From Sphingobacterium hotanense (GTDB lineage Bacteria > Bacteroidota > Bacteroidia > Sphingobacteriales > Sphingobacteriaceae), in the NCBI RefSeq assembly GCF_008274825.1, contig NZ_CP030848.1, forward strand, positions 434,001 through 498,000: DNA of 64,000 nucleotides, written 5' to 3'. Under the pieces are notes generated by a model. That model was not told the DNA's origin. It saw only the letters and a program-made list of their open reading frames with translations, and did not search any database. Shown here in pieces: positions 5,199 to 64,000 of this stretch (within the stretch, counting starts at the first letter, position 1; each line of letters begins with the position of its first letter). Made by a program: the position numbers and the translations under genes.

Positions 5199-5210
5199 AC
5201 CGACCTGAAG

Positions 5211-7456: not shown

Positions 7457-7477
7457 ATCGTTTAAAGACCTAGAATA

Positions 7478-8887: not shown

Positions 8888-8891
8888 TTCA

Positions 8892-43479: not shown

Positions 43480-43678
43480 GCTAACGTTTTGGGTATTGCC
43501 GAAGGCGGGGAAATCGAAGCGATAAGTTTCGATTTTGCACCGAGGTGAGCCAAAACGAATTTTTGTGAGTTAAATTTAAAAATAAAAAACGAATAAAATT
43601 CGTTTTTGGGGGAGATAGAAGTACAAACTTTCAATTTAGTACTGCATCTCCGCTTTTGGCAATACCTTGTTAGCGGTA
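43480..43678 (-). repeat. attC1-like site of the VOC-EVE-MarR cassette
   Basis: A 199-bp palindrome. Inner arms GGGTATTGCC (43491) and GGCAATACC (43658). Outer element GTTAGCGGTA (43669-43678) is complementary to TACCGCTAAC at 45080-45089. A secondary AT-rich stem (AAACGAATTTT/AAAATTCGTTTT) sits inside. It is nearly identical to attC2. Confidence 0.85.
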
Positions 43679-43685
43679 TGTGCTT

Positions 43686-44147
43686 TTATTCGTCTTTGTT
43701 TGTTTTGATAAGTGTTTGCATATAGCTATTCAGATTAGAAAGGTTTTTGTCAATGCTTGAAAAAAATTCAATGTCTGCATTTTCTACTTTCGTAAGTGCT
43801 GTCTGCAAAATCTTTTTCCCGTTTGTTGTCAGCTTTACAATTTTTGCTCTTGTGTCGGTGGCGTGTTCTTGTCTTGTAATCAGTTTTTTGGTTTCTAAAG
43901 TCCGTAATACTTTTGATACCATCATACGGTCAAAGTTGTTGAGATTAGCAATTTCTACCTGCGTAATGTTTTCGCTTTTGTTGGTAAGCCACGCAATGGA
44001 AGTTAGTAAAACAAACTGCGTGTGTGTTAAATCCAAGGGATCTAACACTTTTTTTAGTTTGCGTTGCCAAAGTAATGTTAGTTGTCCTAATAAATACCCC
44101 GGACTTGTGTCGGGACTCTTAAAGATAAATTCAATTTTTTCAGACAT
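43686..44147 (-). CDS. MarR-family transcriptional regulator
   Basis: A 153-residue winged-helix protein. The DNA-binding part reads VEIANLNNFDRMMVSKVLRTLETKKLITRQEHATDTRAK (about residues 62-100), with a typical wing of the MarR family. Its start overlaps the stop of the EVE-domain gene by 8 bases, so it is the last gene of the VOC-EVE-MarR operon. It likely represses this operon through the inverted repeat at 44,966-45,000 in front of the first gene. The inducer is unknown. Confidence 0.88.
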   Translation of the reverse strand: MSEKIEFIFKSPDTSPGYLLGQLTLLWQRKLKKVLDPLDLTHTQFVLLTSIAWLTNKSENITQVEIANLNNFDRMMVSKVLRTLETKKLITRQEHATDTRAKIVKLTTNGKKILQTALTKVENADIEFFSSIDKNLSNLNSYMQTLIKTNKDE

Positions 44148-44580
44148 ATTCTTTTTGTAACATTTTAGATGAAATTAAATTAAAATCGTGTTGCTTTATT
44201 TCAAAGAAACCAAAGCGAAACGGATAACCCCAACTTTTTTTGTTTTGAATAAAATTCAAGTCGTCAATCAGCGGAAGAATGGACACGTCTTCGCTTTCAT
44301 AAAATTCAATATTCCTTCTGAATGGACAAAAATCCGCAGTCATCTGAAACGGATATACTTCATTGTCTTTTACTATTCCGATTGCCGTAAATTCCTGACA
44401 CTTTTCAGGCTTTCCAAATGTAAGTTTTCCCGAATAGTAAATCACAAAATCGCCTTTTTGCATTCTTTTCAAAGGCGATGATTTCCCGTGACAGGCTTGT
44501 GCAATTCCTTCTGCAACGCCTGTTCTTACGTGGTCTTTAGATGCTACGATAATCCAATATTTCGTTGGTCTATCTTTCAT
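44140..44580 (-). CDS. EVE-domain protein
   Basis: A 146-residue protein starting MKDRPTKYWIIVASKDHVRTGVAEG. The motif WIIVASKDHV and the later GDFVIYYSGKLTFG are those of EVE (PUA/YTH-like) domains, which bind modified bases in nucleic acids. The N-terminal site contains the usual aromatic Trp and Tyr. Stand-alone EVE proteins often sit beside defence or stress genes. Here it lies between a VOC protein and a MarR regulator in one cassette. The modified base that it reads is unknown. Confidence 0.82.
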   Translation of the reverse strand: MKDRPTKYWIIVASKDHVRTGVAEGIAQACHGKSSPLKRMQKGDFVIYYSGKLTFGKPEKCQEFTAIGIVKDNEVYPFQMTADFCPFRRNIEFYESEDVSILPLIDDLNFIQNKKSWGYPFRFGFFEIKQHDFNLISSKMLQKEYV

Positions 44581-44585
44581 TTTGG

Positions 44586-44951
44586 CTAATTATTTCGTTG
44601 CATGAAAGTCAACACGTATCCGTCAAGGTCTTTTACCATCAATGTTTTGCCAAAAGGCGTTTGGTTGATACCACCCAAAATTGGAATTTTTCTATCTTCA
44701 AACTGCTCTTTTAGTTTTTCAATTGTTCCGTCAATAGCAAACCAAAGAGAGGTGCCAATTCCTAACTCTTTTCCGTCAATGTTTCCAATTGGTTTACGGA
44801 TAGCAAAACTTGCTTCGCCTTTATTGTATTTAAAAACAACAGCTTCGGGATTACCGATTTCCAAAGGCTCAAAGCCTAATTTATTTGTGTAGAAGTCTTT
44901 TGAGGCTTCCAAATCTCTCACTTGAAGAGATGCAAATTCTAATCGTCTCAT
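44586..44951 (-). CDS. VOC-family (glyoxalase/bleomycin-resistance-like) protein
   Basis: A 121-residue protein with the vicinal-oxygen-chelate fold (RRLEFASLQVRDLEASKDFY..., TPFGKTLMVKDLDGYVLTFMQ). Small VOC proteins sequester drugs such as bleomycin or act as glyoxalase or dioxygenase enzymes. Given the resistance context and the MarR partner, a drug- or metabolite-binding role is plausible, but not shown. It is the first gene of its cassette, with a MarR-type inverted repeat in front of it. Confidence 0.82.
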   Translation of the reverse strand: MRRLEFASLQVRDLEASKDFYTNKLGFEPLEIGNPEAVVFKYNKGEASFAIRKPIGNIDGKELGIGTSLWFAIDGTIEKLKEQFEDRKIPILGGINQTPFGKTLMVKDLDGYVLTFMQRNN

Positions 44952-44965
44952 TGTTTAAAATTTCA

Positions 44966-45000
44966 ATTGTTGCTGTAAATATAATATACACGACAACAAT
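44966..45000. promoter_or_regulatory. Candidate MarR operator
   Basis: The near-perfect inverted repeat ATTGTTGCTGT (44966-44976) and ACGACAACAAT (44990-45000) lies 15 bases upstream of the VOC ATG. Its position and form suit binding of the MarR protein encoded in the same cassette. Confidence 0.5.
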
Positions 45001-45079
45001 AAACAAATTTTTTCTGTTTTTTTTATTTTAGTTGTCAAGAAATGCGTCGATAAGTTTTTTATGAGTGGTTGAGTAGCAT

Positions 45080-45282
45080 TACCGCTAACGTTTTGGGTAT
45101 TGCCGAAGGCGGGGAAATCGAAGCGATAAGTTTTGATTTTGCACCGAGGCGAGCCAAAACGAATTTTTATGAGTTAAATTTAAAAATAAAAAACGAATAA
45201 AATTCGTTTTTGGCGGAGATAGAAGCACAAACCTTGAATTTAGCAATTTAAGCCTGCTTTTGGCAATACCTTGTTACCTGCA
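45080..45282 (-). repeat. attC2-like site of the UvrA-like cassette
   Basis: A 203-bp palindrome. Inner arms GGTATTGCC and GGCAATACC. Outer element GTTACCTGCA (45273-45282) is complementary to TGCAGGTAAC at 47592-47601. It is nearly the same as attC1, including the inner AT-rich stem. Confidence 0.85.
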
Positions 45283-45285
45283 GTA

Positions 45286-47535
45286 CTATTCAAGATGCTT
45301 TTTTAAAAACTTTGCGGTTTCCGATTTTTTGTTTTTTAAAAGGTCTGCAACGAAACCTTCAAAAATTAAATTTCCGCCATATTTACCTGCACCAATCCCG
45401 ATGTCAATTATCCAGTCGGCTTTTGAAATAATATCTAAATTATGTTCTATTACAATTAACGTATTGCCTTTGTCAATAAGGCGATTTATAATTACCATTA
45501 ACTTCTCTGTATCGGCGGGATGTAAACCTGTGCTTGGTTCGTCTAATACAAAAGTATTGTTCACACTATTCAATTCCTTTGTTAATTTTAAGCGTTGCCT
45601 TTCCCCGCCTGAAAAACTATTGAGGCGTTGTCCTAAAGTCAAATAACCCAAACCCAGTTCTACCAATAAATTAAAATGATGGACAAAATCATTTTCCTCA
45701 AAGAAAATTTGGGATTCTTCCACCGTTAATTCCATTACTTCCGCAATGTTTTTGCTATTATATTGATAATGCAGAACATCTGGATTAAAACCATTTCCGC
45801 CACAAACTTCGCAAGGTTCTTCTACATCTTCCATAAAAGCCAAATCAATTTTTTCGATACCCAATCCTTTACAATTAGGGCAAGCTCCTTCTCCGTTTCG
45901 GCTGAAAATTTTGTTGCTTACGTTGTTTTCTTTGGCGAATAAATTACGAATGAAATCGGAGATATCAAGATAAGTAAGCAAGTTGCTTCTTGAAGTTGCC
46001 GCAAAAATTGATTGGTCAATAATTTTCACATCGGGAAATTGAATAGGCAAAACTTTACTGATTAATGTGCTTTTGCCCGAACCTGCTACTCCTGTAACAA
46101 CCGTCAATACTTTTTTTGGAATATTTACTGTGATGTTTTTTAGATTATGTAATTGTGCATTTTTAATGGTTAAATAACTTTCGGATTTACGTGGAGATGT
46201 ATTGTAAGTTCTTTTTTGCAAAAAATAACTGCCTGTTTTTCCAGCTGAATTTTTTAATTTTTCAAAACTACCTTCATATACAATTTCCCCACCTTTTTTG
46301 CCCGACAATGGACCCATATCTACAATGTGTTCGGCAATTTTAATCAAGTCGGGGTCGTGTTCTACAATTAAAACGGTATTGCTCTTGTCTTTTATTTGCT
46401 GAATAATTCCTGCAATATTTTCTAAATCTTTTGGATGTAAACCGATGCTCGGTTCATCAAAAATGTATAAAAGATTTTCTAGACTGTTGCCCAAATGCTT
46501 CACCATTTTTATGCGTTGCGATTCACCGCCTGATAAAGTATTTGTAACTCTGTCGAGCGTTAAATATTGAAGCCCGATATTCACCACATTTTTAAGCTTT
46601 TTGATTAGCTCATTTAGTAGTGTTTCATATGCTTTTGAAGAAAGTGTTTTTATAAAATTAAGCAATTCATCAATTGGCAGTTCCGAACAATCAGCAATGT
46701 TTTTACCATTAATTTTGCAGGATAAAATTTTTTCGTTCAACCTTTTTCCGTTGCAGGCAGGGCAAGGCTCTGAAATTAATATCTTTTGAAGTTCATTTTT
46801 GCGGGTATTGAATTCTTTACTATCCTTTTTTAAAAAATCATTGGTTAGTCTGGGAATAATTCCTTTGTAAAGCATTGTTTTTCCCCAGCTTTTATGAGGA
46901 TTTTTTGGTTTATGCTCGTCTGCGTACAATAAAAGCTCCCATTCTTTAGAAGAATATTCTCCAAGTTTTTTATCGTTGTCAAAATATCCGGAATAGGCAT
47001 ACCTTATCCATCTGTAACCGCCCGGCTGAAAAGTAGGAAATAAAATTGCTCCTTCATTCAGCGATTTATTTTTGTCGAATAAGTTGGTTATATTAATCGT
47101 TTGTTTCTGTCCCAAACCTTCACAAATAGGGCACATTCCTTGGGGATTATTGAAAGAAAACACATTGGAATATCCGACAAATGGCTTTCCCATTCTGGAA
47201 AAAAGTAAACGTAGCGAGGCATAAATATCTGTAGCAGTACCAACTGTTGACCTTGCGTTACCACCCAATCTTTTTTGATTGATTATTACAGGAACATTTA
47301 AATGCTCAATTTTATCAACATCTGCCACACCAAAATGCATCAGTCTGTTCCTTACAAAACTGTTTTGCGTTTCATTAATCTGCCGTTGTGCTTCAGCACC
47401 AATTGTTTCAAAAACTAGCGAAGATTTACCCGAACCAGAAACACCCGTAAAAACGGTAATTTTATTTTTTGGTATTTCAAGAGAAATATTTTTTAAATTA
47501 TTTTGCCTTGCACCTGTTATTTTTATTGTTTCCAT
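45286..47535 (-). CDS. UvrA-like ABC protein (class II UvrA / DrrC-like)
   Basis: A 749-residue protein with two ABC ATPase units, each with a Walker A (TGVSGSGKSSLV at about 30 and TGVAGSGKSTLI at about 480) and ABC signature (TLSGGESQRIKMV and SFSGGERQRLKLT). The Cys-rich zinc fingers of UvrA are seen (CPICEGLG, CPACNGKR, CPNCKGLG with CEVCGGNG). It is shorter than UvrA (about 940 residues) and lacks the UvrB-binding insertion, as in class II (UvrA2) and DrrC proteins. Such proteins are linked to tolerance of DNA-intercalating drugs. It is alone in its cassette. Confidence 0.85.
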   Translation of the reverse strand: METIKITGARQNNLKNISLEIPKNKITVFTGVSGSGKSSLVFETIGAEAQRQINETQNSFVRNRLMHFGVADVDKIEHLNVPVIINQKRLGGNARSTVGTATDIYASLRLLFSRMGKPFVGYSNVFSFNNPQGMCPICEGLGQKQTINITNLFDKNKSLNEGAILFPTFQPGGYRWIRYAYSGYFDNDKKLGEYSSKEWELLLYADEHKPKNPHKSWGKTMLYKGIIPRLTNDFLKKDSKEFNTRKNELQKILISEPCPACNGKRLNEKILSCKINGKNIADCSELPIDELLNFIKTLSSKAYETLLNELIKKLKNVVNIGLQYLTLDRVTNTLSGGESQRIKMVKHLGNSLENLLYIFDEPSIGLHPKDLENIAGIIQQIKDKSNTVLIVEHDPDLIKIAEHIVDMGPLSGKKGGEIVYEGSFEKLKNSAGKTGSYFLQKRTYNTSPRKSESYLTIKNAQLHNLKNITVNIPKKVLTVVTGVAGSGKSTLISKVLPIQFPDVKIIDQSIFAATSRSNLLTYLDISDFIRNLFAKENNVSNKIFSRNGEGACPNCKGLGIEKIDLAFMEDVEEPCEVCGGNGFNPDVLHYQYNSKNIAEVMELTVEESQIFFEENDFVHHFNLLVELGLGYLTLGQRLNSFSGGERQRLKLTKELNSVNNTFVLDEPSTGLHPADTEKLMVIINRLIDKGNTLIVIEHNLDIISKADWIIDIGIGAGKYGGNLIFEGFVADLLKNKKSETAKFLKKHLE

Positions 47536-47591
47536 AATGTTTGAGCAATTTGTTCATCGTTTAATGTTTAGGGCAGGTTGGTTGAAAGTAT

Positions 47592-47730
47592 TGCAGGTAA
47601 CGTTTTGCGTGTATGAGAAGTAGCGGATTAAAAAGCACTTCACTTTTAGTTTGGCACTAACTTTTATTAAAAGCTCAGACCTTTGATTTAGCACTGAACC
47701 CGCTATTTTTCATACACGCTGTTGGTAGCC
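47592..47730 (-). repeat. attC3-like site of the SIR2/DUF262 cassette
   Basis: A 139-bp palindrome. Inner arms GCGTGTATGA and CATACACGC. Outer element GTTGGTAGCC (47721-47730) is complementary to GGCTACCAAC at 49809-49818. Confidence 0.85.
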
Positions 47731-47734
47731 GTAT

Positions 47735-48787
47735 TTATTCGATTCTATTTTGTCCTAAATATTCTAATAAAGCATTAATTCTTCTGATTCTTCTAGCACG
47801 ACTCTTTGTTCCCGCATTCATTGATATTTGATAATCAGTCGCGTAAGGATTTTCATTTTTTTCTCTGAGGTCAGTATAGAAACTGTCTAGTTGTGTGTCT
47901 ATATCAGGAATTTGTATTCCATTTTCATACATATGCCAAGCGAGACCAAATAAACCATACATATGACTAACTCCGAAGATTCTATATTTCTCAAGGTCAA
48001 GGTTAAAGGTTTGAATTATTTCTGTTATTCGTTCAAACTCATTAAATACATCTTCGGTGTTTTCAAAGTTTGATGCTGCATATTTTGAAAATAAATCGTC
48101 AATAATCTCAGTCCTATCACTCGCAAATAATTGATTTTCTAAAATCACAAATAAAAGCTCAGAGATGAATTCGTGGTGCTCTAGCCTATTTCTCTCTAGT
48201 TTAGAAAGTGGATATTGCCAAAAATCAATATTTGAGCACCTTTCTATCAGTTGATAAAAGTTAGAATTGTGATATTTTGCGTTCCTTAATTCTTGATTAG
48301 TTAATGGCTCTCCATTGCGATTCAATCTATCAAATATATTATTAACTATATCAATTTGGTCTGTATCAACATACTCAATTGTTAGTTCGTATTTCCAAAA
48401 AACTTTTTTCCATTCTGAGAGACCTTTTTCATCGAAATCTTTAAAAAACAAACCATTTAGAACTTCATCTCCATAGGTGTCATTACTAAAATCATCTGGT
48501 ATACTAACTTCATTTTTTATAAATGAAATAATTGTTGTAAGGCGCTGCTTTCCATCGATTACGTCATAAATAGTCTTCCCGGTTTCAGTATCAATATGCT
48601 GATGTAAAAAAATGGGAGGCATTGGAAAATTCTTTAAAATGGTATCGATTAAAAAAGACTTCTTGGAGTATGACCAAACATCTGAAGGTCTTTGATAATC
48701 AGGTTCAAAGTTGTATTTCCCTAATTGATAATTTTCCCAAAAGGTGGCAATATTAATATTATTGCTATTTCTTTCTAATACTTTCAT
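47735..48787 (-). CDS. DUF262 (ParB/GmrS-like) protein
   Basis: A 350-residue protein whose N-terminal half is a DUF262 domain (NFEPDYQRPSDVWSYSKKSF, then the conserved YDVIDGKQRLTTIISFI at about residues 74-90). The DGKQR motif is the family's nucleotide-binding and nuclease-linked signature, known from GmrS of the GmrSD restriction system. The C-terminal half is helical with no recognised domain. It starts three bases past the stop of the SIR2-like gene, so the two form an operon. A defence role is inferred from the two families together. Confidence 0.82.
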   Translation of the reverse strand: MKVLERNSNNINIATFWENYQLGKYNFEPDYQRPSDVWSYSKKSFLIDTILKNFPMPPIFLHQHIDTETGKTIYDVIDGKQRLTTIISFIKNEVSIPDDFSNDTYGDEVLNGLFFKDFDEKGLSEWKKVFWKYELTIEYVDTDQIDIVNNIFDRLNRNGEPLTNQELRNAKYHNSNFYQLIERCSNIDFWQYPLSKLERNRLEHHEFISELLFVILENQLFASDRTEIIDDLFSKYAASNFENTEDVFNEFERITEIIQTFNLDLEKYRIFGVSHMYGLFGLAWHMYENGIQIPDIDTQLDSFYTDLREKNENPYATDYQISMNAGTKSRARRIRRINALLEYLGQNRIE

Positions 48788-48789
48788 AT

Positions 48790-49785
48790 CTATTCACTTA
48801 AAGATTTAGAGTCATTATAGAAAATGACATTTTTAAAAAGAGTTGTCATAACAGCATTTAGAATCCTCGGTGGATTGGGATTTATTACTCGTACATTACT
48901 AATTTCTGGAGAAATGTTCGTAAGTATTGAATCTATTTCAAGTCTGTCTACGTGCCAATATGACATCCCGCAAAATACAACTTCATCCGATTCCGTTAGA
49001 GATTTGGCTTGTTCAATAGCACTTTCTCTTACTACACTTGCCCATTTGAAATCCAATCTGCTTGAATCACCTGCAGGAGGTATTATTGCATTTATCTTAT
49101 TTAAGGCATCTAAGCTGGTATATTTAATTTCAAATTCAGAAATATTTCCATCATTAGTATCTGTGTCGTAATCAATTTTAAAATCTTCAACAACCTTTTT
49201 TACTTTATGAACGAAACTAATTGAACCGTGTGGTTTATAGATTTTAAATTTTGAATCGGAATTATTAAAGCAAGCTATATCAAAACTAATATTAAGTTTT
49301 TGAAGGACTTTCTCAAGCCAAATATCATAGTTGAAAGTTACGATGTGAACTTTTCCAATATCAGGAGAATCATTAAGCTTCTTTAGGTAGGATGTCCAAC
49401 CCCAGTTTTCAAGATTTATATTAGGCACATCAATCTGGCTATCATAATGAACAAAAAGAGCATATAAGTATGTTGAAAGCTCGCGGTAGGCTCTTATGTA
49501 TATATTTGATTCGTCACGATTATTTTTCTGTAAAATGTTTGCACAGGTAATTATGTCTTCAATTAATTCAATTGTCTGGTTTGGATCTGAATTAGGTCTC
49601 GCTCCCAAATTCCAGAGATTCGGACAATACTTGTATGACAGGAATCCTGATTGATTATTGCCTGGCCAAGGAACCTTCTCCCCATTTTTAAACAGGTTTC
49701 TTGCATTGATTTCATCAAGTTTTCCTATACTATTGAGAAAGTCCAATGTGAACCCATTTCCTAATATTATGTATATATTCTTCAT
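48790..49785 (-). CDS. SIR2-like protein
   Basis: From the ATG at 49785 (MKNIYIILGNGFTLDFL) the product has 331 residues. An upstream in-frame start at 49827 lies inside the attC4 palindrome and is unlikely. SIR2-like motifs are visible: ILGNGFTLDF near the N-terminus (nucleotide loop), VTFNYDIWLEKVL (the TxNYD element, about 165), YKPHGSISFV (the KLHGS element, about 195) and VVFCGMSYWHVD (about 285). Stand-alone SIR2 effectors degrade NAD in many anti-phage systems. Here it is paired with DUF262 in one cassette. Confidence 0.8.
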   Translation of the reverse strand: MKNIYIILGNGFTLDFLNSIGKLDEINARNLFKNGEKVPWPGNNQSGFLSYKYCPNLWNLGARPNSDPNQTIELIEDIITCANILQKNNRDESNIYIRAYRELSTYLYALFVHYDSQIDVPNINLENWGWTSYLKKLNDSPDIGKVHIVTFNYDIWLEKVLQKLNISFDIACFNNSDSKFKIYKPHGSISFVHKVKKVVEDFKIDYDTDTNDGNISEFEIKYTSLDALNKINAIIPPAGDSSRLDFKWASVVRESAIEQAKSLTESDEVVFCGMSYWHVDRLEIDSILTNISPEISNVRVINPNPPRILNAVMTTLFKNVIFYNDSKSLSE

Positions 49786-49808
49786 TTGGCTGTATTCATT
49801 CGTAATAT

Positions 49809-49948
49809 GGCTACCAACAACGGTCAAGTATAAGAGCAGTAGCGGATTTCAAGGCGATTACTTGTCCGCCACCACCAAAGTTTCTTAGATGCACAGACCT
49901 TGATTTTACCACTTCACCCGCTATTGCTTTTATACAATGTTGTATGCC
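49809..49948 (-). repeat. attC4-like site of the restriction-modification cassette
   Basis: A 140-bp palindrome. Inner arms around CAAGTATAAG and CTTTTATAC. Outer element GTTGTATGCC (49939-49948) is complementary to GGCATACAAC at 56273-56282, which brackets the 6.3-kb five-gene cassette. Confidence 0.85.
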
Positions 49949-50060
49949 CGTGCTTTCTTTTCGTCCGTGCGTTGGGAAAGACACACTTATTGACAAGCTT
50001 TGGCTGGCGCGGCTGGTTTGAGCGGCTTGGCAATGTGTGTGGCTTTGAAGGGTTGGCATA

Positions 50061-52349: not shown

Positions 52350-52352
52350 TTA

Positions 52353-55882: not shown

Positions 55883-55884
55883 AC

Positions 55885-56079: not shown

Positions 56080-56272
56080 TTCCGCATAAATTTAAGCTGC
56101 TAAAATAGCCCAAATATTTCTATTATCTCATTTTTCAATATAAATATCATTCGTTTCCTTGTTAGTCTGTCCGAGCGTGGGCAAAAAAATAGGCTCTTTT
56201 GGTTTTTTTGCGTTTGGCTTGTGGGTCGGCAAAAACCAAATGTGCCTATTTGCGCGTTGGCTTTTTCAGCAT

Positions 56273-56411
56273 GGCATACAACGTTTCTCAGCTATACGCA
56301 GGCAGGGATTTTAACCACTGAACTTCCTACGAAGAACTGAACTTCAAATTTACCACTTTCCTGTCTTACGAAGCACGAACCCCCTGCTTGCGTATAGGTG
56401 ATGTTATGCGG
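56273..56411 (-). repeat. attC5-like site of the erm(F) cassette
   Basis: A 139-bp palindrome. Inner arms CTATACGCAGGCAGGG and CCCTGCTTGCGTATAG. Outer element GTTATGCGG (56403-56411) is complementary to CCGCATAA at 57569-57576. Confidence 0.85.
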
Positions 56412-56709
56412 TCGGCTTTCATTTTCTCTTCTTTCTCGTTAATTTGTCAAGCAAAGTTACTAAATTTGCAGTCAAGCAATTTCAATTTTTGAATTATGTA
56501 TTTCAGCAGACCTTGGACTTCTATCTAAGTGATAGGCAGTCCTGAATAAATTCCAATCAATCTTTTAGGGCAAGACAATCAGTCTATGCTTTGTGTGTGC
56601 TGTCATTTTTTTTGATGGCATTGCTTTGTCGTAGTTGCTCTGTCGGGTAATACTGTCTATTCACTTCTCTGTGATTTGAATTCAAGTATTCACCTGTAAG
56701 AAGTTACTA
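56412..56709. other. Upstream region of erm(F)
   Basis: No gene is seen in these 298 bases. No IS4351-like end was recognised. An AAGAAG stretch (about 56,699) precedes the erm(F) ATG. Confidence 0.5.
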
Positions 56710-57510
56710 ATGACAAAAAAGAAATTGCCCGTTCGTTTTACGGGTCAGCACTTTACTATTGATAAAGTGCTAATAAAAGATGCAATAAGACAAGCAAATA
56801 TAAGTAATCAGGATACGGTTTTAGATATTGGGGCAGGCAAGGGGTTTCTTACTGTTCATTTACTAAAAATCGCCAACAATGTTGTTGCTATTGAAAACGA
56901 CACAGCTTTGGTTGAACATTTACGAAAATTATTTTCTGATGCCCGAAATGTTCAAGTTGTCGGTTGTGATTTTAGGAATTTTGCAGTTCCGAAATTTCCT
57001 TTCAAAGTGGTGTCAAATATTCCTTATGGCATTACTTCCGATATTTTCAAAATCCTGATGTTTGAGAGTCTTGGAAATTTTCTGGGAGGTTCCATTGTCC
57101 TTCAGTTAGAACCTACACAAAAGTTATTTTCGAGGAAGCTTTACAATCCATATACCGTTTTCTATCATACTTTTTTTGATTTGAAACTTGTCTATGAGGT
57201 AGGTCCTGAAAGTTTCTTGCCACCGCCAACTGTCAAATCAGCCCTGTTAAACATTAAAAGAAAACACTTATTTTTTGATTTTAAGTTTAAAGCCAAATAC
57301 TTAGCATTTATTTCCTGTCTGTTAGAGAAACCTGATTTATCTGTAAAAACAGCTTTAAAGTCGATTTTCAGGAAAAGTCAGGTCAGGTCAATTTCGGAAA
57401 AATTCGGTTTAAACCTTAATGCTCAAATTGTTTGTTTGTCTCCAAGTCAATGGGTAAACTGTTTTTTGGAAATGCTGGAAGTTGTCCCTGAAAAATTTCA
57501 TCCTTCGTAG
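56710..57510 (+). CDS. erm(F): 23S rRNA adenine-N6-methyltransferase Erm(F)
   Basis: A 266-residue enzyme that dimethylates A2058 of 23S rRNA and gives macrolide, lincosamide and streptogramin B resistance. Motifs: VLDIGAGKGFLTVHLLK (SAM-binding, about residues 37-53), NIPYGITSDIFK (catalytic NxPY, about 101-112) and PPPTVKSALLNIKR (about 170). To my memory of the known protein it is almost identical to Erm(F), with Val at SQWVNCF where I recall Leu. It lies on the plus strand, opposite to most cassette genes, inside its own attC-bounded cassette. Tn4351/IS4351 ends were not seen. Confidence 0.95.
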   Translation: MTKKKLPVRFTGQHFTIDKVLIKDAIRQANISNQDTVLDIGAGKGFLTVHLLKIANNVVAIENDTALVEHLRKLFSDARNVQVVGCDFRNFAVPKFPFKVVSNIPYGITSDIFKILMFESLGNFLGGSIVLQLEPTQKLFSRKLYNPYTVFYHTFFDLKLVYEVGPESFLPPPTVKSALLNIKRKHLFFDFKFKAKYLAFISCLLEKPDLSVKTALKSIFRKSQVRSISEKFGLNLNAQIVCLSPSQWVNCFLEMLEVVPEKFHPS

Positions 57511-57576
57511 TTCAAAGTCGGGTGGTTGTCAAGATGATTTTTTTGGTTTGGTGTCGTCTTTTAAGCTGCCGCATAA

Positions 57577-57736
57577 TGGCTCGGCGAATTGGCGAAGTAG
57601 CGAAGCTGTATCGAAGATACAAAAGCGGAGCTATTTAGCCAAGTCGCTTGTTGTAAGCAGTCCGCGAAGCGGCGGCTTACGGCAAGCGACGTAAGTCGCC
57701 GAGCCATTGTTAGCAAGGAGCGCAGCGGATTGCTAA
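57577..57736 (-). repeat. Geneless 160-bp cassette, copy 1
   Basis: Read on the minus strand it starts TTAGCAA, soon followed by the complementary TTGCTAAC, then a large palindrome with outer arms AATGGCTCGGCGA and TCGCCGAGCCA. It is identical to the copies at 58766, 59978 and 61362. It sits between the aadS and erm(F) cassettes. Its palindrome ends A^TT instead of G^TT. Confidence 0.85.
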
Positions 57737-57865
57737 CGTGCCGCGTATTGGCGATGGGCGGGATTTTTAGCACTGAACTTTAATCGAAGAACAGAAGTTG
57801 AATTTTGCACTTCCGTTGATACGAAGCCGTTCAGCCCGCCTATTGCCAATACGATGTTGTACGAC
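57730..57865 (-). repeat. attC6-like site of the aadS cassette
   Basis: A palindrome of about 136 bp. Inner arms CGTATTGGCGATGGGCGGG and CCCGCCTATTGCCAATACG. Outer element GTTGTACGAC (57856-57865) is complementary to GTCGTACAA at 58757-58765. Confidence 0.85.
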
Positions 57866-57869
57866 GTAG

Positions 57870-58733
57870 TTATGTTTTGGGTTTTAGTCCAGCTAAATAT
57901 TTTCGTATGTCATTTTCTAATTTATCCGGGTATTTGTACTCTAATTTTTTTGACAATTCAGTTCCTATTTCTGAAACTAAATCAGTCATTGAAAATAGAG
58001 CAGTCCAATTTTCCTTTATATCGCTCCCTGAAAATGTTTGTTCTGTTTTAGCCCACATTTCCTGGTTAAGATACTTTTTGAAAAGTCGTCCATATTTATT
58101 GGTCGTTATGTTCCAATTGTGTTCACTTGCAATGTGCCATTCAATTAAAGGAATTAAATATTCTGTGCGAATAACGGTTTCCGACATAAATTTCGCATAG
58201 AATATTTCATCTCTCACAAGACACTTTGCCACGTAAGTTGTGTCCCACCAAAAATCGTTTATTAGATTTTGAAACTCTTTTTCAGACGGTTTTTTGATAA
58301 TGGAAATTTGATAAGTTGGTTTCAGCATTTGCTTTGTAATACCATCTTTATCAATTAAAATTTTATAACCAATATCCCAATCTTCTGGTAATTCTTTCTC
58401 TTGCGTTTCCTTTATAAATTTTGATTTGCTGTAAAGTTTAAAATCTACTTTCACACCGTCTTCATAAAGTAGCATTTTCATTGCGTGTTTATGGTTAAAA
58501 CAACTTTCGTCTTCTTCAATCATAGCAATTGGATTTCCGAATTTAAGCGTCCAGCTTTTGTCTGAAATGTAATTTGTATTATCCTCAAAAACAAATTCAA
58601 TGTCTAAATCACTAAATTCGTCAACAAGTGCTAAAGGATTTACAAGTGAACTTGTCAGAAGAAGAACTCTTACATCTTCGTTTTTCTCCGACCATTCTAT
58701 AATTGTTCTTAACTTTTCTTCTCTGACTTTCAT
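57870..58733 (-). CDS. aadS: AadS-like aminoglycoside 6-adenylyltransferase, ANT(6) family
   Basis: From the ATG at 58733 (MKVREEKLRTIIEWSEKNED) the product has 287 residues; an in-frame codon at 58811 lies inside the neighbouring cassette palindrome. The nucleotidyltransferase core is seen in LLTSSLVNPLALVDEFSDLDIEFVFED (about residues 22-48, with the catalytic D-x-D) and GVKVDFKLYSKSKF (about 100). The rest matches the streptomycin ANT(6) fold. I recall it as close to AadS of Bacteroides. Predicted to give streptomycin resistance. It is the only gene in its cassette. Confidence 0.88.
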   Translation of the reverse strand: MKVREEKLRTIIEWSEKNEDVRVLLLTSSLVNPLALVDEFSDLDIEFVFEDNTNYISDKSWTLKFGNPIAMIEEDESCFNHKHAMKMLLYEDGVKVDFKLYSKSKFIKETQEKELPEDWDIGYKILIDKDGITKQMLKPTYQISIIKKPSEKEFQNLINDFWWDTTYVAKCLVRDEIFYAKFMSETVIRTEYLIPLIEWHIASEHNWNITTNKYGRLFKKYLNQEMWAKTEQTFSGSDIKENWTALFSMTDLVSEIGTELSKKLEYKYPDKLENDIRKYLAGLKPKT

Positions 58734-58765
58734 TTTGTTTGGTTCGGTTTTACTATGTCGTACAA

Positions 58766-58925
58766 TGGCTCGGCGAATTGGCGAAGTAGCGAAGCTGTAT
58801 CGAAGATACAAAAGCGGAGCTATTTAGCCAAGTCGCTTGTTGTAAGCAGTCCGCGAAGCGGCGGCTTACGGCAAGCGACGTAAGTCGCCGAGCCATTGTT
58901 AGCAAGGAGCGCAGCGGATTGCTAA
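58766..58925 (-). repeat. Geneless 160-bp cassette, copy 2
   Basis: Identical in sequence to copy 1 by inspection. It lies between the lnu and aadS cassettes. Confidence 0.85.
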
Positions 58926-59056
58926 CAACGGTCAAGTATAAGCGTAGTGCGGGTTTTCGGAGCAATACACTGTCCGCCAACACGAACTTTGATAGATGGC
59001 AAAATACTAAATTTTAGCCACTTCGCCCGCATTACGCTTATACAATGTTGGCGGTA
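58919..59056 (-). repeat. attC7-like site of the lnu cassette
   Basis: A 138-bp palindrome. Inner arms TATAAGCGTAGTGCGGG and CCCGCATTACGCTTATA. Outer element GTTGGCGGTA (59047-59056) is complementary to TACCGCCAA at 59969-59977. Confidence 0.85.
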
Positions 59057-59062
59057 GTTTAT

Positions 59063-59833
59063 TTATTCAATTCTCCTTAATACCCCCTTTAATTTTGCTT
59101 CAACTCCAAGATTATCAAAAAGTTTTTCAGTCAATGTTAATGTCTTCTTGAAAGCTGTTTTAATATCTGTCGGATCTAATTCTGATGTTGTCTGCTGAAA
59201 TAACGAATACCAATCTGGATCTATGTCTTTTTCCAAGTTTTTTGTTGGACTTTCCCAATGTTTGGTTTGGTATGTTTCAATTCTTATTAACCAAAGTAAA
59301 TATTTTTGAACATTTGATAAGCTTTGGTAAGCGTGAGCAAATTCCTGTCGTTTAATTAAGTTGCTTGTTGTAAGTAAAACATTCAACAACGATTGGCTCA
59401 ACCACAGGATATTTTCATTTGTTGTTCGATCAGGTACTTTAGTTTTTATTTCTTTGAGCGTGTTAGTCAATAAATCTTCTTTATCTACTAAAATCATCTT
59501 GTCAAAGTCGCTAAACTCTACCGATCCGTCCCACGATTTGATAACTTCCATTTGGTCGTTTGTCAAAAAATGAAACTCCCCCCTTATCATATTTTCAAAA
59601 ATGGCAACTTCACTTCCAAACTCGTTGGTAAAATATAATGCCAAAGGATGAATTTGGCTTACCCAATTTTCAGCGGAAAATTTTTCTTTATCCTTCAAGA
59701 AGATGTAGAATTCAATATCTGAATATTTGTCCCCTTCATTTTTGGTAAATGACCCGTACATAAATACGGCAGAAATATTTTTATCATTTTGAGCTATTGA
59801 CTTTGTTTTGTCAATCATTTGTAGCTGTGTCAT
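59063..59833 (-). CDS. Lincosamide nucleotidyltransferase (Lnu(B/F/H)-like)
   Basis: A 256-residue nucleotidyltransferase. The core reads SAVFMYGSFTKNEGDKYSDIEFYIFL (about residues 20-46: the GSFTK and SDIEF elements with the catalytic acids), followed by VAIFENMIRGEFHFLTNDQM (about 95). These are the hallmarks of the long Lnu group (B, F, H types), which adenylate lincomycin and clindamycin. Length fits that group. The exact allele cannot be told. It fills its cassette alone. Confidence 0.85.
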   Translation of the reverse strand: MTQLQMIDKTKSIAQNDKNISAVFMYGSFTKNEGDKYSDIEFYIFLKDKEKFSAENWVSQIHPLALYFTNEFGSEVAIFENMIRGEFHFLTNDQMEVIKSWDGSVEFSDFDKMILVDKEDLLTNTLKEIKTKVPDRTTNENILWLSQSLLNVLLTTSNLIKRQEFAHAYQSLSNVQKYLLWLIRIETYQTKHWESPTKNLEKDIDPDWYSLFQQTTSELDPTDIKTAFKKTLTLTEKLFDNLGVEAKLKGVLRRIE

Positions 59834-59977
59834 TTTCTAATTTTTTAATATTAACAATCGCCCTTTCTACTTTGCGTATTAAAGGATATTTCAATTCTTA
59901 TTCTATCTTACAGTTACTTATAGCTTCATTTTCTTGAATGTTTTTCGTTGTTAATTGTTTCTTCAAATTACCGCCAA

Positions 59978-60137
59978 TGGCTCGGCGAATTGGCGAAGTA
60001 GCGAAGCTGTATCGAAGATACAAAAGCGGAGCTATTTAGCCAAGTCGCTTGTTGTAAGCAGTCCGCGAAGCGGCGGCTTACGGCAAGCGACGTAAGTCGC
60101 CGAGCCATTGTTAGCAAGGAGCGCAGCGGATTGCTAA
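59978..60137 (-). repeat. Geneless 160-bp cassette, copy 3
   Basis: Identical to copies 1, 2 and 4 by inspection. It lies between the arr and lnu cassettes. Confidence 0.85.
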
Positions 60138-60268
60138 CAACGGTTTGGGTATTTGCGATGGCACGGCATTTGAAAACCGTCAGCCGAAAATATGCACAAA
60201 AGTTGATAGTAGTACAAATGTTCAATTACTTCCGTCAGTCGTGCTATTGCAAATACCATGTTAGCGGG
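60131..60268 (-). repeat. attC8-like site of the marR-arr cassette
   Basis: A 138-bp palindrome. Inner arms GGGTATTTGC and GCAAATACC. Outer element GTTAGCGGG (60260-60268) is complementary to CCCGCTAA at 61354-61361. Confidence 0.85.
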
Positions 60269-60303
60269 TCGTTGTTCTATGTCAAATAATAATTGTTTAT
60301 TCA

Positions 60304-60750
60304 TTAGTCTATAATAACATTCTTCCCTTGTTCTCTAAGTTTTTCCAGTCCATCTTTCATAGCTTTAATCTCTTCAAGGGTATGTCCGTGCCAACCGGTT
60401 ACTTCTCCAACAACTTTAAAAGGATGTTTCGAACGATAGGATTTTGTGGGATTACCAGGAAATTTTTTGTCCGTTACGTTGGGGTCATCTTCTATGTCGC
60501 CTGTTGCTTCTACTAAATAAATCCTTTCACGTCCGTTGCCCAAAGCAAGTTCTGCTCCTAATATTGCAGTATTCAGTGTAGCCGAAACATAAATATGCTT
60601 TAATATTCTGTTTTCTTCATAATTACTGTTGAAACCTACTTGAATGAAATCGCCAATTTTCAAGTCAGCCTTTGTTCCGTGAAAATAGGTTTGAGCAAAC
60701 GGTGTAGGAATATGAAGTACGGCTTTATCTTCTATTTTGGTTGTGTTCAT
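60304..60750 (-). CDS. arr: Rifampin ADP-ribosyltransferase
   Basis: A 148-residue enzyme of the Arr family. Motifs: TYFHGTKADLKIGDFIQVGF (about residues 21-40), HIYVSATLNTAILGAELALG (about 52-71) and ERIYLVEATGDIEDDPNVTDKKFPGNPTKSYRS. It transfers ADP-ribose from NAD to the C23 hydroxyl of rifamycins and inactivates them. It is 9 bases after a MarR gene and shares its promoter. The length is usual for Arr. Confidence 0.93.
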   Translation of the reverse strand: MNTTKIEDKAVLHIPTPFAQTYFHGTKADLKIGDFIQVGFNSNYEENRILKHIYVSATLNTAILGAELALGNGRERIYLVEATGDIEDDPNVTDKKFPGNPTKSYRSKHPFKVVGEVTGWHGHTLEEIKAMKDGLEKLREQGKNVIID

Positions 60751-60759
60751 AGTTATTTC

Positions 60760-61221
60760 TTATTGTTTCTCGTTTACTTTTTCAATTTCTTTATTCATCA
60801 ACTCCAATGCTTTGTGGAAGTATTTTTCTAAAATGTTTAATTCATCACTATTGAATGACACAAAAAGGTCGTGTGTTTTGTTTTGGTAGTTACTATAAAA
60901 TGGTGTAACCAACTTTGTTATTCTATCAATATTGGGAACTATGATTATTTTCCGCCTGTCAGTTTTGTCGGGCTGTCTTTTTACGAGTTTTTTGTTTTCA
61001 AACCGGTCTATTAGCCCTGTAACCGAACCTGTTGTTAACCCTGTAAGTAGGGCAAGTTCACCTGCTGTCATTTGACCTTTTTGAATTAAGAAACCTAAAT
61101 ATTTATGGTCAGTGCCAGTCAGTCCAATTTTTCTACCAATGCTTTCGTGCATTTGAATAGATGTGTAGGCATAAAGTTGGCTCAATTTCCTTAAGTTGAT
61201 GATTTTTTCTTTGACAGGCAT
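60760..61221 (-). CDS. MarR-family regulator upstream of arr
   Basis: A 153-residue winged-helix protein (TAGELALLTGLTTGSVTGLIDRFENKKLVKRQPDKTDRRK, about residues 55-94), a clear MarR DNA-binding domain. It is the first gene of the arr cassette and differs from the MarR protein at 43,686. A TATCTTTG -7 element stands 29 bases in front, overlapped by a TTGACAAC/TTGTTAAC-like palindrome, so it probably controls itself and arr. The inducer is unknown. Confidence 0.88.
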   Translation of the reverse strand: MPVKEKIINLRKLSQLYAYTSIQMHESIGRKIGLTGTDHKYLGFLIQKGQMTAGELALLTGLTTGSVTGLIDRFENKKLVKRQPDKTDRRKIIIVPNIDRITKLVTPFYSNYQNKTHDLFVSFNSDELNILEKYFHKALELMNKEIEKVNEKQ

Positions 61222-61249
61222 AAATCTTGTTAACCATTTATCTTGACAA

Positions 61250-61257
61250 CAAAGATA
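61250..61257 (-). promoter_or_regulatory. Candidate promoter of marR-arr
   Basis: The minus strand reads TATCTTTG (exact TAnnTTTG) 29 bases before the MarR ATG. A possible operator TTGT...ACAA surrounds it (61,227-61,251). Confidence 0.45.
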
Positions 61258-61361
61258 ATATATTTTTTTGGTAGTTACCTAAAATGTTTGATTCAAAATT
61301 TAAGGATAGTTGATTTTGGTTTGTCTGTCAGGGATGGGTGTCGCTCTACAATGCCCGCTAA

Positions 61362-61521
61362 TGGCTCGGCGAATTGGCGAAGTAGCGAAGCTGTATCGAA
61401 GATACAAAAGCGGAGCTATTTAGCCAAGTCGCTTGTTGTAAGCAGTCCGCGAAGCGGCGGCTTACGGCAAGCGACGTAAGTCGCCGAGCCATTGTTAGCA
61501 AGGAGCGCAGCGGATTGCTAA
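61362..61521 (-). repeat. Geneless 160-bp cassette, copy 4
   Basis: Identical to the other three copies by inspection. It lies between the DHFR and marR-arr cassettes. Confidence 0.85.
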
Positions 61522-61654
61522 CAACGGTTCGGGGTTTGGTGAAGGTGGGGTTTAGAAAGTAATAAAGTACAAATTTAGCACAAAAGCTAATAGAAAGTAC
61601 AAATGTTCAGCCTAGCACTAAAGCCCCACTTTTGCCAAACCCATGTTATCGGCA
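61515..61654 (-). repeat. attC9-like site of the DHFR cassette
   Basis: A 140-bp palindrome. Inner arms GGGTTTGGTGAAGGTGGGG and CCCCACTTTTGCCAAACCC. Outer element GTTATCGGCA (61645-61654) is complementary to TGCCGATAAC at 62340-62349. It contains TAAATTTG (minus, 61577-61570) with a TTTG 22 bases upstream, a possible promoter. Confidence 0.85.
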
Positions 61655-61714
61655 TGTGCTATTTTCTGTCCGAATTTATATCGTTCAAGTCTGCACAAGC
61701 CTTTTTCAATGTGA

Positions 61715-62218
61715 TTATTTTCTTGACGATGTTCTTTCATATTCTACAATTTTAAATGAGTATTGATGTTTATTGTCTGACTCTCTAAAAATGGAATTCA
61801 TAATTGTCCACTCACTAAGTTGAAAGTGGGGAAAAAAGGTGTCGCCTTTTAGTTCACAATTTACATGTGTTATATAAAGTCTGTCAGCAATAATTATCAA
61901 TTGAGTATAAATTTCTTCGCCACCACAGATAAAAAGTTCAGCCTCTCCGTTTTGCTTTGCATATTCTAAACCTTCATCAATTGAGTTTACAATTACGCAT
62001 TCACTATCTTGGAATTTACTGTCTCTTGTTACAACAATAATCTTTCTATCCTTCAATTTTTTTCCTAACGACTGATACGTCTTTCTTCCCATCAGCACAA
62101 AATGTCCTAAGGTTTTAGTTTTAAAATACTTCAAGTCCTCAGGCAAATGCCATAGTAAGCTATTGTTTAAACCAATTGCATTGTTTTTTTCTATTGCACT
62201 TATTAATGAAATTAGCAT
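61715..62218 (-). CDS. Dihydrofolate reductase (trimethoprim-resistance type likely)
   Basis: A 167-residue DHFR. Motifs: SLISAIEKNNAIGLNNSLLWHLPEDLKYF (N-terminal, with the substrate-binding acidic residue after LP), FVLMGRKTYQSLG and FICGGEEIYTQLI (cofactor-binding GG). It is of the chromosomal size (DfrA class). As a cassette gene next to other resistance genes it is most likely a trimethoprim-insensitive enzyme, but resistance itself cannot be read from the sequence. Allele unknown. Confidence 0.88.
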   Translation of the reverse strand: MLISLISAIEKNNAIGLNNSLLWHLPEDLKYFKTKTLGHFVLMGRKTYQSLGKKLKDRKIIVVTRDSKFQDSECVIVNSIDEGLEYAKQNGEAELFICGGEEIYTQLIIIADRLYITHVNCELKGDTFFPHFQLSEWTIMNSIFRESDNKHQYSFKIVEYERTSSRK

Positions 62219-62339
62219 TCCTTCAAATTTATTGGTTTAATAGTTTCTTTGAAATGAATTGTCATGAAATGTCGTTTTAGTGAATTTTCGTTGTCAATTT
62301 CTTGTCGGTCAGTTTGATGTTGACTGGTCGTCCAAGCAT

Positions 62340-62480
62340 TGCCGATAACGAAAAATGGTAGCCGTAGTTGCCGGATTTACAGCACTTTCGTATCAATTTA
62401 GCACTTCGGTTCGTTAAAAGCACCAAAGTATCAAGTTGGCACGAAAGCCGGCAATTATCGGCTACCATATGTTAGTGGCA
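62340..62480 (-). repeat. attC10-like site of the beta-lactamase cassette
   Basis: A 141-bp palindrome. Inner arms ATGGTAGCCGTAGTTGCCGG and CCGGCAATTATCGGCTACCA differ by one extra base, as the bulged bases of attC sites do. Outer element GTTAGTGGCA (62471-62480) is complementary to TGCCACTAAC at 63338-63347. Confidence 0.85.
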
Positions 62481-62484
62481 TTTA

Positions 62485-63309
62485 TCATTTCATTATATTC
62501 ATTTGCTTTAACGCATTTTTTGTTACATTAATTCTCGATGAAATAAAATCATCAACATTCAATCCGTCTGTCGGAATTACATTTGTTGCAAAAAAATAAA
62601 CATTAGATTTTGTTTCAACATAACCAACAAACCAACCATTATATTTTTCTTCTATCGAACTTAATCCAGTCTTACCGCTTAAAATGTAATTTTCAGTTCG
62701 CTCAATTTCCATAATATTTTTGACAATCTTTATTGTCCTATCAGAAATTGGAAATTTTGAAAAATAGAATTTCCTTAAAAAGTCGATTTGTTGTTTTTGA
62801 GATATTTTTGAATTTCCTTCAAGCCAAAAATTGTCAATCGTTAAACTGTCAAAAATCATATTTTTATACTCAAATTTTTCTAAATATTCTTTCATTTTAA
62901 TTGTTCCGATTTTCCTTGCAATTTCCTGATAGCAAGGAACACAGGAAATTCTAAAAGCATCTTTAAATGATAAATCTTTTTCCCAAATATCCATTTTTCT
63001 CTGCTCGCCATTCCATTTTAAAATAGTTGTATCATTTTCAATAATGCCTAATTCAACAGCAATTATAGAATTTGGAATTTTGAATGTTGATGCAGGTAAT
63101 TTTCCGTTTTTAGCCCAATCAAAGTCATTTGAGTAAAAAGTATTCTTGTCGTTATCATAAATTAGAATTGAACCATTTACTTGAAAACTATCTAAAATTT
63201 TGTCAAAATCAGAAATTTCTGTTTCAATTATGTTTTTATTCGTTGTTGTGTTACAGCAAACAAATAAAAATATCATTGAAATAAAAACTACAAATAAAAT
63301 ATTTTTCAT
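62485..63309 (-). CDS. Class D (OXA-type) beta-lactamase, predicted lipoprotein
   Basis: A 274-residue enzyme with the class D motifs STFK (catalytic Ser and Lys, in PASTFKIPN, about residues 77-85), SCV (in RISCVPCYQEIARKIG), KTG (in ILSGKTGLSS) and the following Trp (YNGWFVGYVE). The usual YGN motif appears as YKN (KFEYKNMIFD), which departs from most OXA enzymes. The N-terminus ends in a lipobox-like LFVCCNTTT, suggesting membrane attachment. It hydrolyses penicillins at least; carbapenemase activity is not predictable. It is the sole gene of its cassette. Confidence 0.9.
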   Translation of the reverse strand: MKNILFVVFISMIFLFVCCNTTTNKNIIETEISDFDKILDSFQVNGSILIYDNDKNTFYSNDFDWAKNGKLPASTFKIPNSIIAVELGIIENDTTILKWNGEQRKMDIWEKDLSFKDAFRISCVPCYQEIARKIGTIKMKEYLEKFEYKNMIFDSLTIDNFWLEGNSKISQKQQIDFLRKFYFSKFPISDRTIKIVKNIMEIERTENYILSGKTGLSSIEEKYNGWFVGYVETKSNVYFFATNVIPTDGLNVDDFISSRINVTKNALKQMNIMK

Positions 63310-63337
63310 TTATTGTCTAATTATCGTTTGTTTTTGT

Positions 63338-63539
63338 TGCCACTAACGGGAAACGCATTGGCGAAGTGGCGGATAAATTGAACCGAAAGTTCAATTTAGC
63401 AGTGACGTAGCCGATGTGTTTCCACAGAAGCTAAATTATTAAAAAAAAGCTGAATGTGGGACACATTCGGCGGAATAAAAAGCACAAAAGTTGAATTTTG
63501 AACTTAACCCGCCATTTTGCCAATGCGATGTTATGTGTA
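63338..63539 (-). repeat. attC11-like site of the catB-carrying cassette
   Basis: A 202-bp palindrome. Inner arms CGCATTGGCGAAGTGGCGG and CCGCCATTTTGCCAATGCG. Outer element GTTATGTGTA (63530-63539); its partner should lie beyond the right edge, after catB. Confidence 0.8.
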
Positions 63540-63548
63540 GTTTTTTAG

Positions 63549-63556
63549 TATCTTTG
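63549..63556 (+). promoter_or_regulatory. Candidate -7 element for catB
   Basis: The plus strand has TATCTTTG (exact TAnnTTTG) 117 bases upstream of the catB ATG, just after attC11. A TTTG is about 30 bases further upstream, which is longer than the usual spacing. Confidence 0.35.
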
Positions 63557-63672
63557 TCAGATGAAATTATCAGATTAGCAAATTTACTTTACGCAACGTA
63601 TAGGAAGAGAATAGTTTAGTATTATTCTTCGTTTCCTTATTGTCTCTTATTGTAAATTAAATATGTTAAATA

Positions 63673-64000
63673 ATGAAAAATTACTTCGAAAGTCCTTTTA
63701 AAGGAAAAATAATCAAAGACCACATAACTAATCCCAATATAATTTCGGGTAAATATTCTTATTATTCTGGTTATTATCACGGTCATTCATTTGACGATTG
63801 TGCTCGTTATCTGTTTCCGGACAGGAATGATGTCGATAAACTAATTATCGGTTCTTATTGTTCAATAGGGAGCGGTGCAAGTTTCATAATGGCAGGTAAT
63901 CAAGGTCATAAATATGATTGGATTTCCAGTTTTCCATTTTTTTATATGTCTGAATTTGATGTTTTCAGTAAAAGCCAAGATGGATTTCAAAAAGCAGGAG
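63673..64000 (+). CDS. catB: Type B chloramphenicol acetyltransferase (partial, C-terminus off the window)
   Basis: The plus strand opens with ATG at 63673 and is open to the edge: 109 codons. It reads [20 protein letters not shown] and then [40 protein letters not shown] and [20 protein letters not shown]. This is the start of the CatB (xenobiotic acetyltransferase, left-handed beta-helix) family, which acetylates chloramphenicol. The catalytic His is expected in the visible GNQGHKYDW. It lies on the plus strand, opposite to the main cassette direction, like erm(F). The remaining half is beyond the window. Confidence 0.9.

Follow-up and report, generated by a model that had tools for sequence, protein, structure and literature searches.

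A gene cassette array in Sphingobacterium hotanense suggests an integron lineage of Bacteroidota with an unusual recombinase and hairpin site

Results

The 64,000 nucleotides of Sphingobacterium hotanense contig NZ_CP030848.1 analysed here (positions 434,001 to 498,000; "the window" below) end in an array of gene cassettes that are separated by hairpin-forming sites and followed, beyond position 64,000, by an integrase gene. A first-pass annotation of the bare sequence had seen eleven palindromes between units that it named, and this count holds: our covariance model R1 finds exactly 11 sites within the window, every one on the + strand and each forming the closing end of one cassette unit. 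Cut at G^TT on the minus strand, the array resolves into ten complete gene cassettes, the first part of an eleventh with catB, and four mini-cassettes of 160–163 bp that carry no gene and that the first-pass annotation had not listed. It continues past 64,000 (locus L010, cited below with its own coordinates) with the remainder of catB, a tandem pair of tet(X) cassettes, one more mini-cassette (M5) and the integrase gene.

All units are read on the minus strand. From the left, these are a cassette with VOC, EVE and MarR genes (43485..45088, site 43479-43675; Pfam), one for a UvrA-like protein of 749 aa (45089..47600, site 45083-45279; NCBIfam), a SIR2-like gene with GmrSD_N (DUF262) (47601..49817, site 47595-47727; Pfam and PADLOC) and a restriction-modification cassette (49818..56281, site 49815-49945), in which Pfam and PADLOC recognize Vsr, a C5 methylase, an AAA ATPase and DUF2357/PD-(D/E)XK. 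Then follow erm(F) (56282..57576, site 56276-56409), mini-cassette M1 (57577..57736), aadS (57737..58765, site 57731-57862), M2 (58766..58928), an lnu(H)-like gene (58929..59977, site 58923-59053), M3 (59978..60140), arr with a MarR-like regulator (60141..61361, site 60135-60266), M4 (61362..61524), a dihydrofolate reductase gene (61525..62348, site 61519-61651) and a class D beta-lactamase gene (62349..63346, site 62343-62477), where the resistance cassettes are named by NCBIfam. The catB cassette begins at 63347 and runs to the window's end at 64000 (site 63341-63536). Boundaries come from cut points and sites from R1; the mini-cassettes are defined by cut points, M1 being missed by R1. Two genes, erm(F) and catB, lie on the + strand and thus against the array direction. 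A transposase gene sits inside the catB unit and an IS21-type pair, named by eye, lies at the left end of the array; these insertion sequence (IS) copies have landed inside or beside the array, and the units are not joined by them, the finding that the first-pass annotation had said would refute its reading. The family of M1–M4 has 18 full-length copies across 10 other loci, and further geneless hairpins occur at attI or between cassettes in L019, L030, L032 and L012.

Beyond the window, the two tet(X) cassettes (L010:4384-5550 and 5711-6877) form a tandem pair of 1,327-bp units (L010:4384-6877) with an identical 388-aa product, and mini-cassette M5 lies in the same locus. The attI site is at about L010:7057, and the integrase, a tyrosine recombinase of 304 aa, is encoded on the + strand at L010:7151-8065, divergent from the array. 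The search for an integrase and an attI past 64,000 that the annotation had recommended thus succeeded on both counts, although the enzyme is not IntI. The sequence ACATCTGTTTTAACGAAACGAATATACGG upstream of the integrase gene is invariant, and 14 different 16-mers stand to its left in a comparison of 35 fetched stretches, which represent about 21 different places, several of them fetched twice. Divergence begins at the same base except for a 3-nt CAA slip in two stretches. The site adjoins the integrase gene, and cassettes are inserted at its G^TT. A promoter-like stretch near attI, a candidate for the cassette promoter Pc, was noted by eye.

Copies of the integrase with at least 98% identity are found in Empedobacter, Parapedobacter, Larkinella, Flavobacterium, Pedobacter, Bacteroides, a Sinomicrobium metagenome-assembled genome and several Sphingobacterium. 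Against NCBIfam it scores 206 bits with XerA (cut-off 220) and 193 bits with the integron integrase profile (integrase_gron; cut-off 265), the latter over two stretches. Where VchIntIA has about 63 residues the aligned integrase has 20; the additional domain of IntI is not present by this comparison, and ten aligned relatives have no insertion there. Residues R162, K187, H251, R254, H277 and Y286, which we take to be the six catalytic residues of a tyrosine recombinase, are invariant in these ten relatives. Next to chromosomal arrays (L070, L082, L085, L086) and on a Chryseobacterium plasmid (L012) stand integrases that share 39–43% identity with it and run in the direction of their arrays; four of these five have an N-terminal extension, and the array starts at a TATAAACAAG^TT-like motif in four of six such loci (L012, L013, L070 and L082). 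In a tree, the array integrases together with IntI split from the genome's own XerC and XerD with 100/99 support; the integrase does not group with these housekeeping recombinases.

The units behave as cassettes both in their ends and in their exchange. Closing a cassette into a circle would bring its first bases up against its own R'' box. Among 125 pairs of consecutive sites, the first ten bases of a cassette agree with its own R'' box at all ten positions in 63 and at nine in 37, against a mean of 5.8/10 with the boxes of other cassettes; rows of low agreement were retained, and in most of them R1 had missed a mini-cassette located between the two sites. At position 11 of the R box only 4/125 pairs agree, the usual combination being A versus G, which on the bottom strand gives a T·G wobble; at positions 12–15 agreement returns, in 90, 97, 83 and 78 of the pairs. 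The longest open reading frame (ORF) is co-oriented with the array in 113 of 126 intervals, and the strand of the sites is uniform within each array. As for exchange, which had been predicted as cassettes shared at identical boundaries but with other neighbours, the aadS cassette is found over its full length (nt 1-1029, at least 99.8%) in Larkinella, two Sphingobacterium, Bacteroides salyersiae and one further genome, with attI, gene X, mini-cassettes or tet(X) as its neighbours. It is also complete, and differently flanked, on plasmids of Riemerella anatipestifer, Bacteroides thetaiotaomicron and Empedobacter stercoris. Likewise, erm(F) 1-1295 recurs at 99.9% in the chromosomal array of L076 and at 95.4% on the Flagellimonas plasmid L014, and tet(X) is found as 1-1327 in L019 and L137 and as 5-1327 in L025 and L078.

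On plasmid p63039 of Myroides odoratimimus (L153), an element of a tyrosine recombinase and an IS91-family transposase is present three times (329-2343, 3776-5790 and 7120-9134), and such a two-gene element is also listed at L013 (9744-11686). Two aadS cassettes of L153 are broken within the hairpin site, at nt 121-126, and this element may target hairpin sites.

Read on the bottom (+) strand, a site opens with a cassette-specific box whose last bases are AAC; after ~6 nt of spacer comes a stem of 18–22 bp enclosing a loop, and the second arm is followed by a 1–3-nt spacer and GTT with the matching box (about 10 nt). The distance between cores falls into two length classes, about 125 and about 187 nt. 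The palindromes had been expected to fold as bottom strands, and in DNA folds the + strand was indeed the more stable in 18 of 18 sites, a set that includes five near-identical mini-cassettes and two identical tet(X) sites and in which the margin was in some cases just 0.5 kcal/mol. For four sites, 0, 1, 2 and 18 of 200 shuffles equalled the stability of the bottom-strand fold; the last of these is the arr site, which is therefore energetically unexceptional by itself. G·T wobbles in the arms become A·C mismatches on the opposite strand. A pairing scan gave no matches in window positions 1-41000 or in the last 6 kb of L010 on either strand, and none in six shuffles of the array, which permuted base pairs of letters and were not strict dinucleotide shuffles; no Rfam family reached its gathering score anywhere in the window. 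In a consensus built from 18 sites, the hairpin loops (e.g., of site 61519-61651) repeat an AAGCAC-like motif at intervals of ~20 nt.

For covariation we used alignment A1, that is, 18 of 24 non-redundant short-loop sites, picked by an ungapped scan for at least one wobble and at most one mismatch. In A1, 17 of the 19 stem pairs vary on both sides, a level that 0 of 500 shuffles reached, and the stems pair ungapped and without bulged bases, with a G·T wobble present instead: position 13 of the 19-bp stem is G·T in all 18. As the A1 sites had been picked with at least one wobble, the test of position 13 lies in the sites found later, and among distinct stems outside the model it is G·T in 30/31, 86/89 and 40/41. 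The set of 89 stems has no Watson-Crick pair at this position, and two of its three exceptions are antisense matches. Weak antisense matches overlie strong ones (2/109 in one R1 set, several below 30 bits in another), and the R1 site listing omits 7 of 27 candidate loci (L011, L013, L017, L021, L034, L036 and L038).

It had been suggested that the same kind of site be sought in other Bacteroidota, and R1 sites were found in 150 of 296 sampled genomes of this phylum (85 of 139 genera), compared with 1 of 249 Pseudomonadota and 5 of 149 Bacillota genomes; these counts are lower bounds because 11 candidates were scored per genome, and 33 of the 150 positive Bacteroidota genomes have a single match. 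An integrase profile was positive in 98 of the 296 Bacteroidota genomes (E 1e-55). Sites are present in 86 of these 98, versus 64 of the other 198 (odds ratio 15, p 2e-20, uncorrected for relatedness). Of 20 integrase neighbourhoods, picked by hand down the list of matches, 14 contain sites, and in one genome (G063) 18 sites extend across ~32 kb with the last one 1.6 kb from an integrase gene; the 18 array regions that we studied were themselves chosen for clusters of sites. In many draft genomes the contig ends at most ~4 kb from the integrase gene (L109, L110, L111, L114, L117, L120, L121 and L125), as would be expected if repeat arrays break assemblies. Matches in Bacillota are weaker and many have shorter loops; integrase relatives are present at the Bacillota loci L147 and L150, and such relatives also occur in Paenibacillus (L034). 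All 17 matches from seven non-Bacteroidota loci have G·T at position 13, with scores so low that the model may itself select for this pair. The weaker sites (L087, L147-L151 and L034) suggest that the system extends beyond one phylum.

In Sphingobacterium N143 (L019) the platform of integrase, attI and array lies inside a likely 11.9-kb element between two copies of a tRNA end (repeats at 312427 and 324285), which also carries HTH, Toprim, NikA/MobC-like and relaxase genes, gene X (its stop codon doubles as the last core) and, at the left end of the element, a separate integrase-family ORF. This separate position is why we rejected the element's own integrase as the cassette integrase. In L019, L020, L025 and others the platform is found downstream of relaxase/mobilization genes and gene X. 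The present genome retains the right tRNA-end repeat (L010); the window contains no tRNA-end repeat, the exact end motif of gene X was not found in it, and by eye there is no relaxase among the ORFs listed to the left of the array. The mobilizable element looks degraded here. On an Acinetobacter tet(X3) plasmid, an integrase relative of reduced length (49% identity across 75% of the query) stands ahead of a tet(X) unit that is 86% alike; the plasmid has no R1 site, and ISVsa3 (IS91-like) lies downstream. We infer that IS elements carried tet(X) onward from the platform.

The first-pass annotation had described the cargo as antibiotic resistance mixed with anti-phage genes. Erm(F), AadS, Arr, the class D beta-lactamase and CatB score above their NCBIfam cut-offs, and the Lnu(H)-like protein (446 bits, cut-off 540) and the dihydrofolate reductase (138 bits, cut-off 168) score below theirs; a near match to the dihydrofolate reductase cassette was searched for on plasmids, and none was found. 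As anti-phage cargo only the restriction-modification cassette is secure. SIR2-like and GmrSD_N are plausible as a defence pair: the former matches SIR2_2 with 21 bits (Pfam cut-off 24.5), and PADLOC gives weak SIR2 matches and a match to NsnA for the GmrSD_N protein. The UvrA-like protein lies narrowly over the UvrA cut-off (750 vs 729.8 bits, NCBIfam), and for it and for VOC-EVE-MarR a defence role is unsupported. Among 20 proteins sampled from the 79 encoded in chromosomal arrays, ten had no Pfam match at 0.001, and others include a DndB-like protein, a C5 methylase, a PemK toxin, a glyoxalase, a carbonic anhydrase and AadS. Resistance is one kind of cargo among many.

Discussion

We consider it highly probable that the array was built by an integron-type capture system whose tyrosine recombinase is related to XerA and IntI and lacks the additional domain of IntI. 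Comparison of sequences between genomes demonstrates the cassette boundaries, their exchange between arrays, an invariant attI with varied first cassettes, a single site strand per array and the co-occurrence of integrase and sites. The neighbouring integrase would be the acting enzyme, and it would likely insert cassettes in circular form next to its own gene, at the cut that follows the G of G^TT. Recombination would use the folded bottom strand of the hairpin site, possibly by way of a circular single-stranded intermediate, and the G·T pair at position 13, together with a second wobble at position 11 of the R box, could mark the usable strand and so do the job that bulged extrahelical bases do in the attC sites of IntI. 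We suggest that the platform exists in two versions: a mobile one, to which that of the window would belong, with the integrase divergent from the array and, in relatives, carried on a mobilizable element inserted at a tRNA end, and a chromosomal one with the integrase upstream of the array and co-directional with it.

The alternative that survives best is that the sites are real but that the cassettes are moved by another recombinase, such as XerC/XerD, the integrase of the mobilizable element or an IS91-like transposase, with the neighbouring integrase as a bystander. It could draw on the 64 of 150 site-bearing genomes that have no integrase match at the strict threshold, on the IS91-type genes near some arrays and on the separate integrase-family ORF of the mobilizable element. 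However, the invariant attI adjoins the integrase gene, integrase and sites co-occur across genomes and in neighbourhood counts, and XerC and XerD branch apart from the array enzymes, and for these reasons we regard a bystander integrase as unlikely. An ordinary IntI integron in an unusual host would explain the layout, the GTT core, the preference for the bottom strand and the fact that the integron-integrase profile is matched at all. This is nevertheless very improbable, since that match is split and falls well below its cut-off, the enzyme is some 40 residues short of VchIntIA where the additional domain lies, the stems are ungapped and do not need bulges, and only 15 of 205 R'' boxes fit GTTRRRY. 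That IS elements or homologous recombination assembled the units around passive hairpins, e.g., terminators, is scarcely credible: IS elements do lie in and beside the array and near-identical mini-cassette copies could recombine, yet end-to-end cassettes with different flanks, cassette-specific pairing of boxes, a near-invariant wobble and one site strand per array are not expected from such stacking.

Several observations count against capture by the neighbouring integrase. No recombination was observed, and it is from sequence comparison that we infer the role of the enzyme. At E 1e-55, 64 genomes bear sites without the integrase and 12 bear the integrase without a site; likewise, 6 of the 20 neighbourhoods have no sites, in five of which the contig ends within 300 bp of the gene. 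The array integrases form no single supported clade, and the tree does not separate IntI from the array enzymes. An empty junction of gene X and attI was not found in the collection searched (viral_contigs), where attI is likewise absent. Model R1 itself includes the wobble at position 13; most sites score far over the threshold, and a different pair at this position should therefore still have been detected. Finally, many stems have C·A at position 4 when read as the bottom strand (16/47, 38/89 and 9/41), and as this pairs as a wobble on the other strand, position 4 favours the opposite strand.

The first-pass annotation read the locus as a cassette array of a Bacteroidota integron family. 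The array, integrase, attI and exchange of cassettes bear this out, whereas the integrase is not IntI and the sites depart from the rules of IntI attC sites. We think it probable that the locus belongs to a second integron lineage, present in about half of Bacteroidota and in some Bacillota, that is characterized by a recombinase without the IntI domain and a strand-marking, near-invariant G·T wobble. It would then be an unrecognized platform on which tet(X), erm(F), aadS, catB and OXA genes were assembled, including the ermF region of CTnDOT, before IS elements moved some of them to Proteobacteria. If this is true, the Bacteroidota, a gut, soil and animal-associated phylum, have a cassette economy of their own that current finders would miss, and a single mechanism lies behind the co-occurrence of tet(X), erm(F) and aadS.

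With IntI integrons the system shares an array of cassettes beside a tyrosine recombinase, insertion at G^TT, a bottom-strand hairpin, a mostly uniform orientation and diverse, often unknown cargo. The core consensus of IntI attC sites is GTTRRRY, which is found in only 15 of the 205 boxes parsed from 216 R1 matches, and the present sites have in its place a matching box of ~10 nt with a wobble at position 11. Because the additional domain is absent and this core is rare, we reject membership of the IntI integrons and do not file the system among them. The domain is used here as defined in PMC9668308. The stem differs as well, being unbulged with G·T at position 13, whereas IntI attC sites have two extrahelical bases (PMC3053210), and the near-invariant wobble suggests a new and simple way in which folded single strands could be distinguished from their complements. 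With IntegronFinder 2.0 a single complete integron was reported for Bacteroidetes proper, that of Salinibacter ruber, and an earlier survey with this program found there only elements with an integrase and no cassettes (PMC9024848), from which it would appear that IntegronFinder misses the present sites. A literature search of titles and the starts of abstracts, with preprints and most subscription papers outside its scope, found no such system described.

Tn6031 and the ermF region of CTnDOT, classed as mobilizable elements (PMC5704250), resemble the present system in their tet(X), aadS and erm(F) cargo, and in relatives of our locus the platform follows mobilization genes, the L019 element agreeing with how both are described; unlike it, they are described in the cited portion of that paper as cargo-bearing elements and not as carriers of a cassette-capturing integron. 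Another parallel is Riemerella anatipestifer, where dfrA49, catB, aadS and tet(X) occur in the same cluster and where aph(3')-IVb was taken up independently of flanking homology together with a 140-bp 3' region that folds like attC (PMC13148043). A stable dfrA49-catB structure is known from Riemerella and Chryseobacterium (PMC10100655). In the account of the aph(3')-IVb case, as far as the portion cited goes, a site-specific mechanism is proposed and called not fully elucidated, no integron was found near the insertion site, and no integrase or family of sites is named (PMC13148043). The system proposed here has both an integrase and a family of sites, and if it is real, the homology-independent uptake of genes in Riemerella becomes testable.

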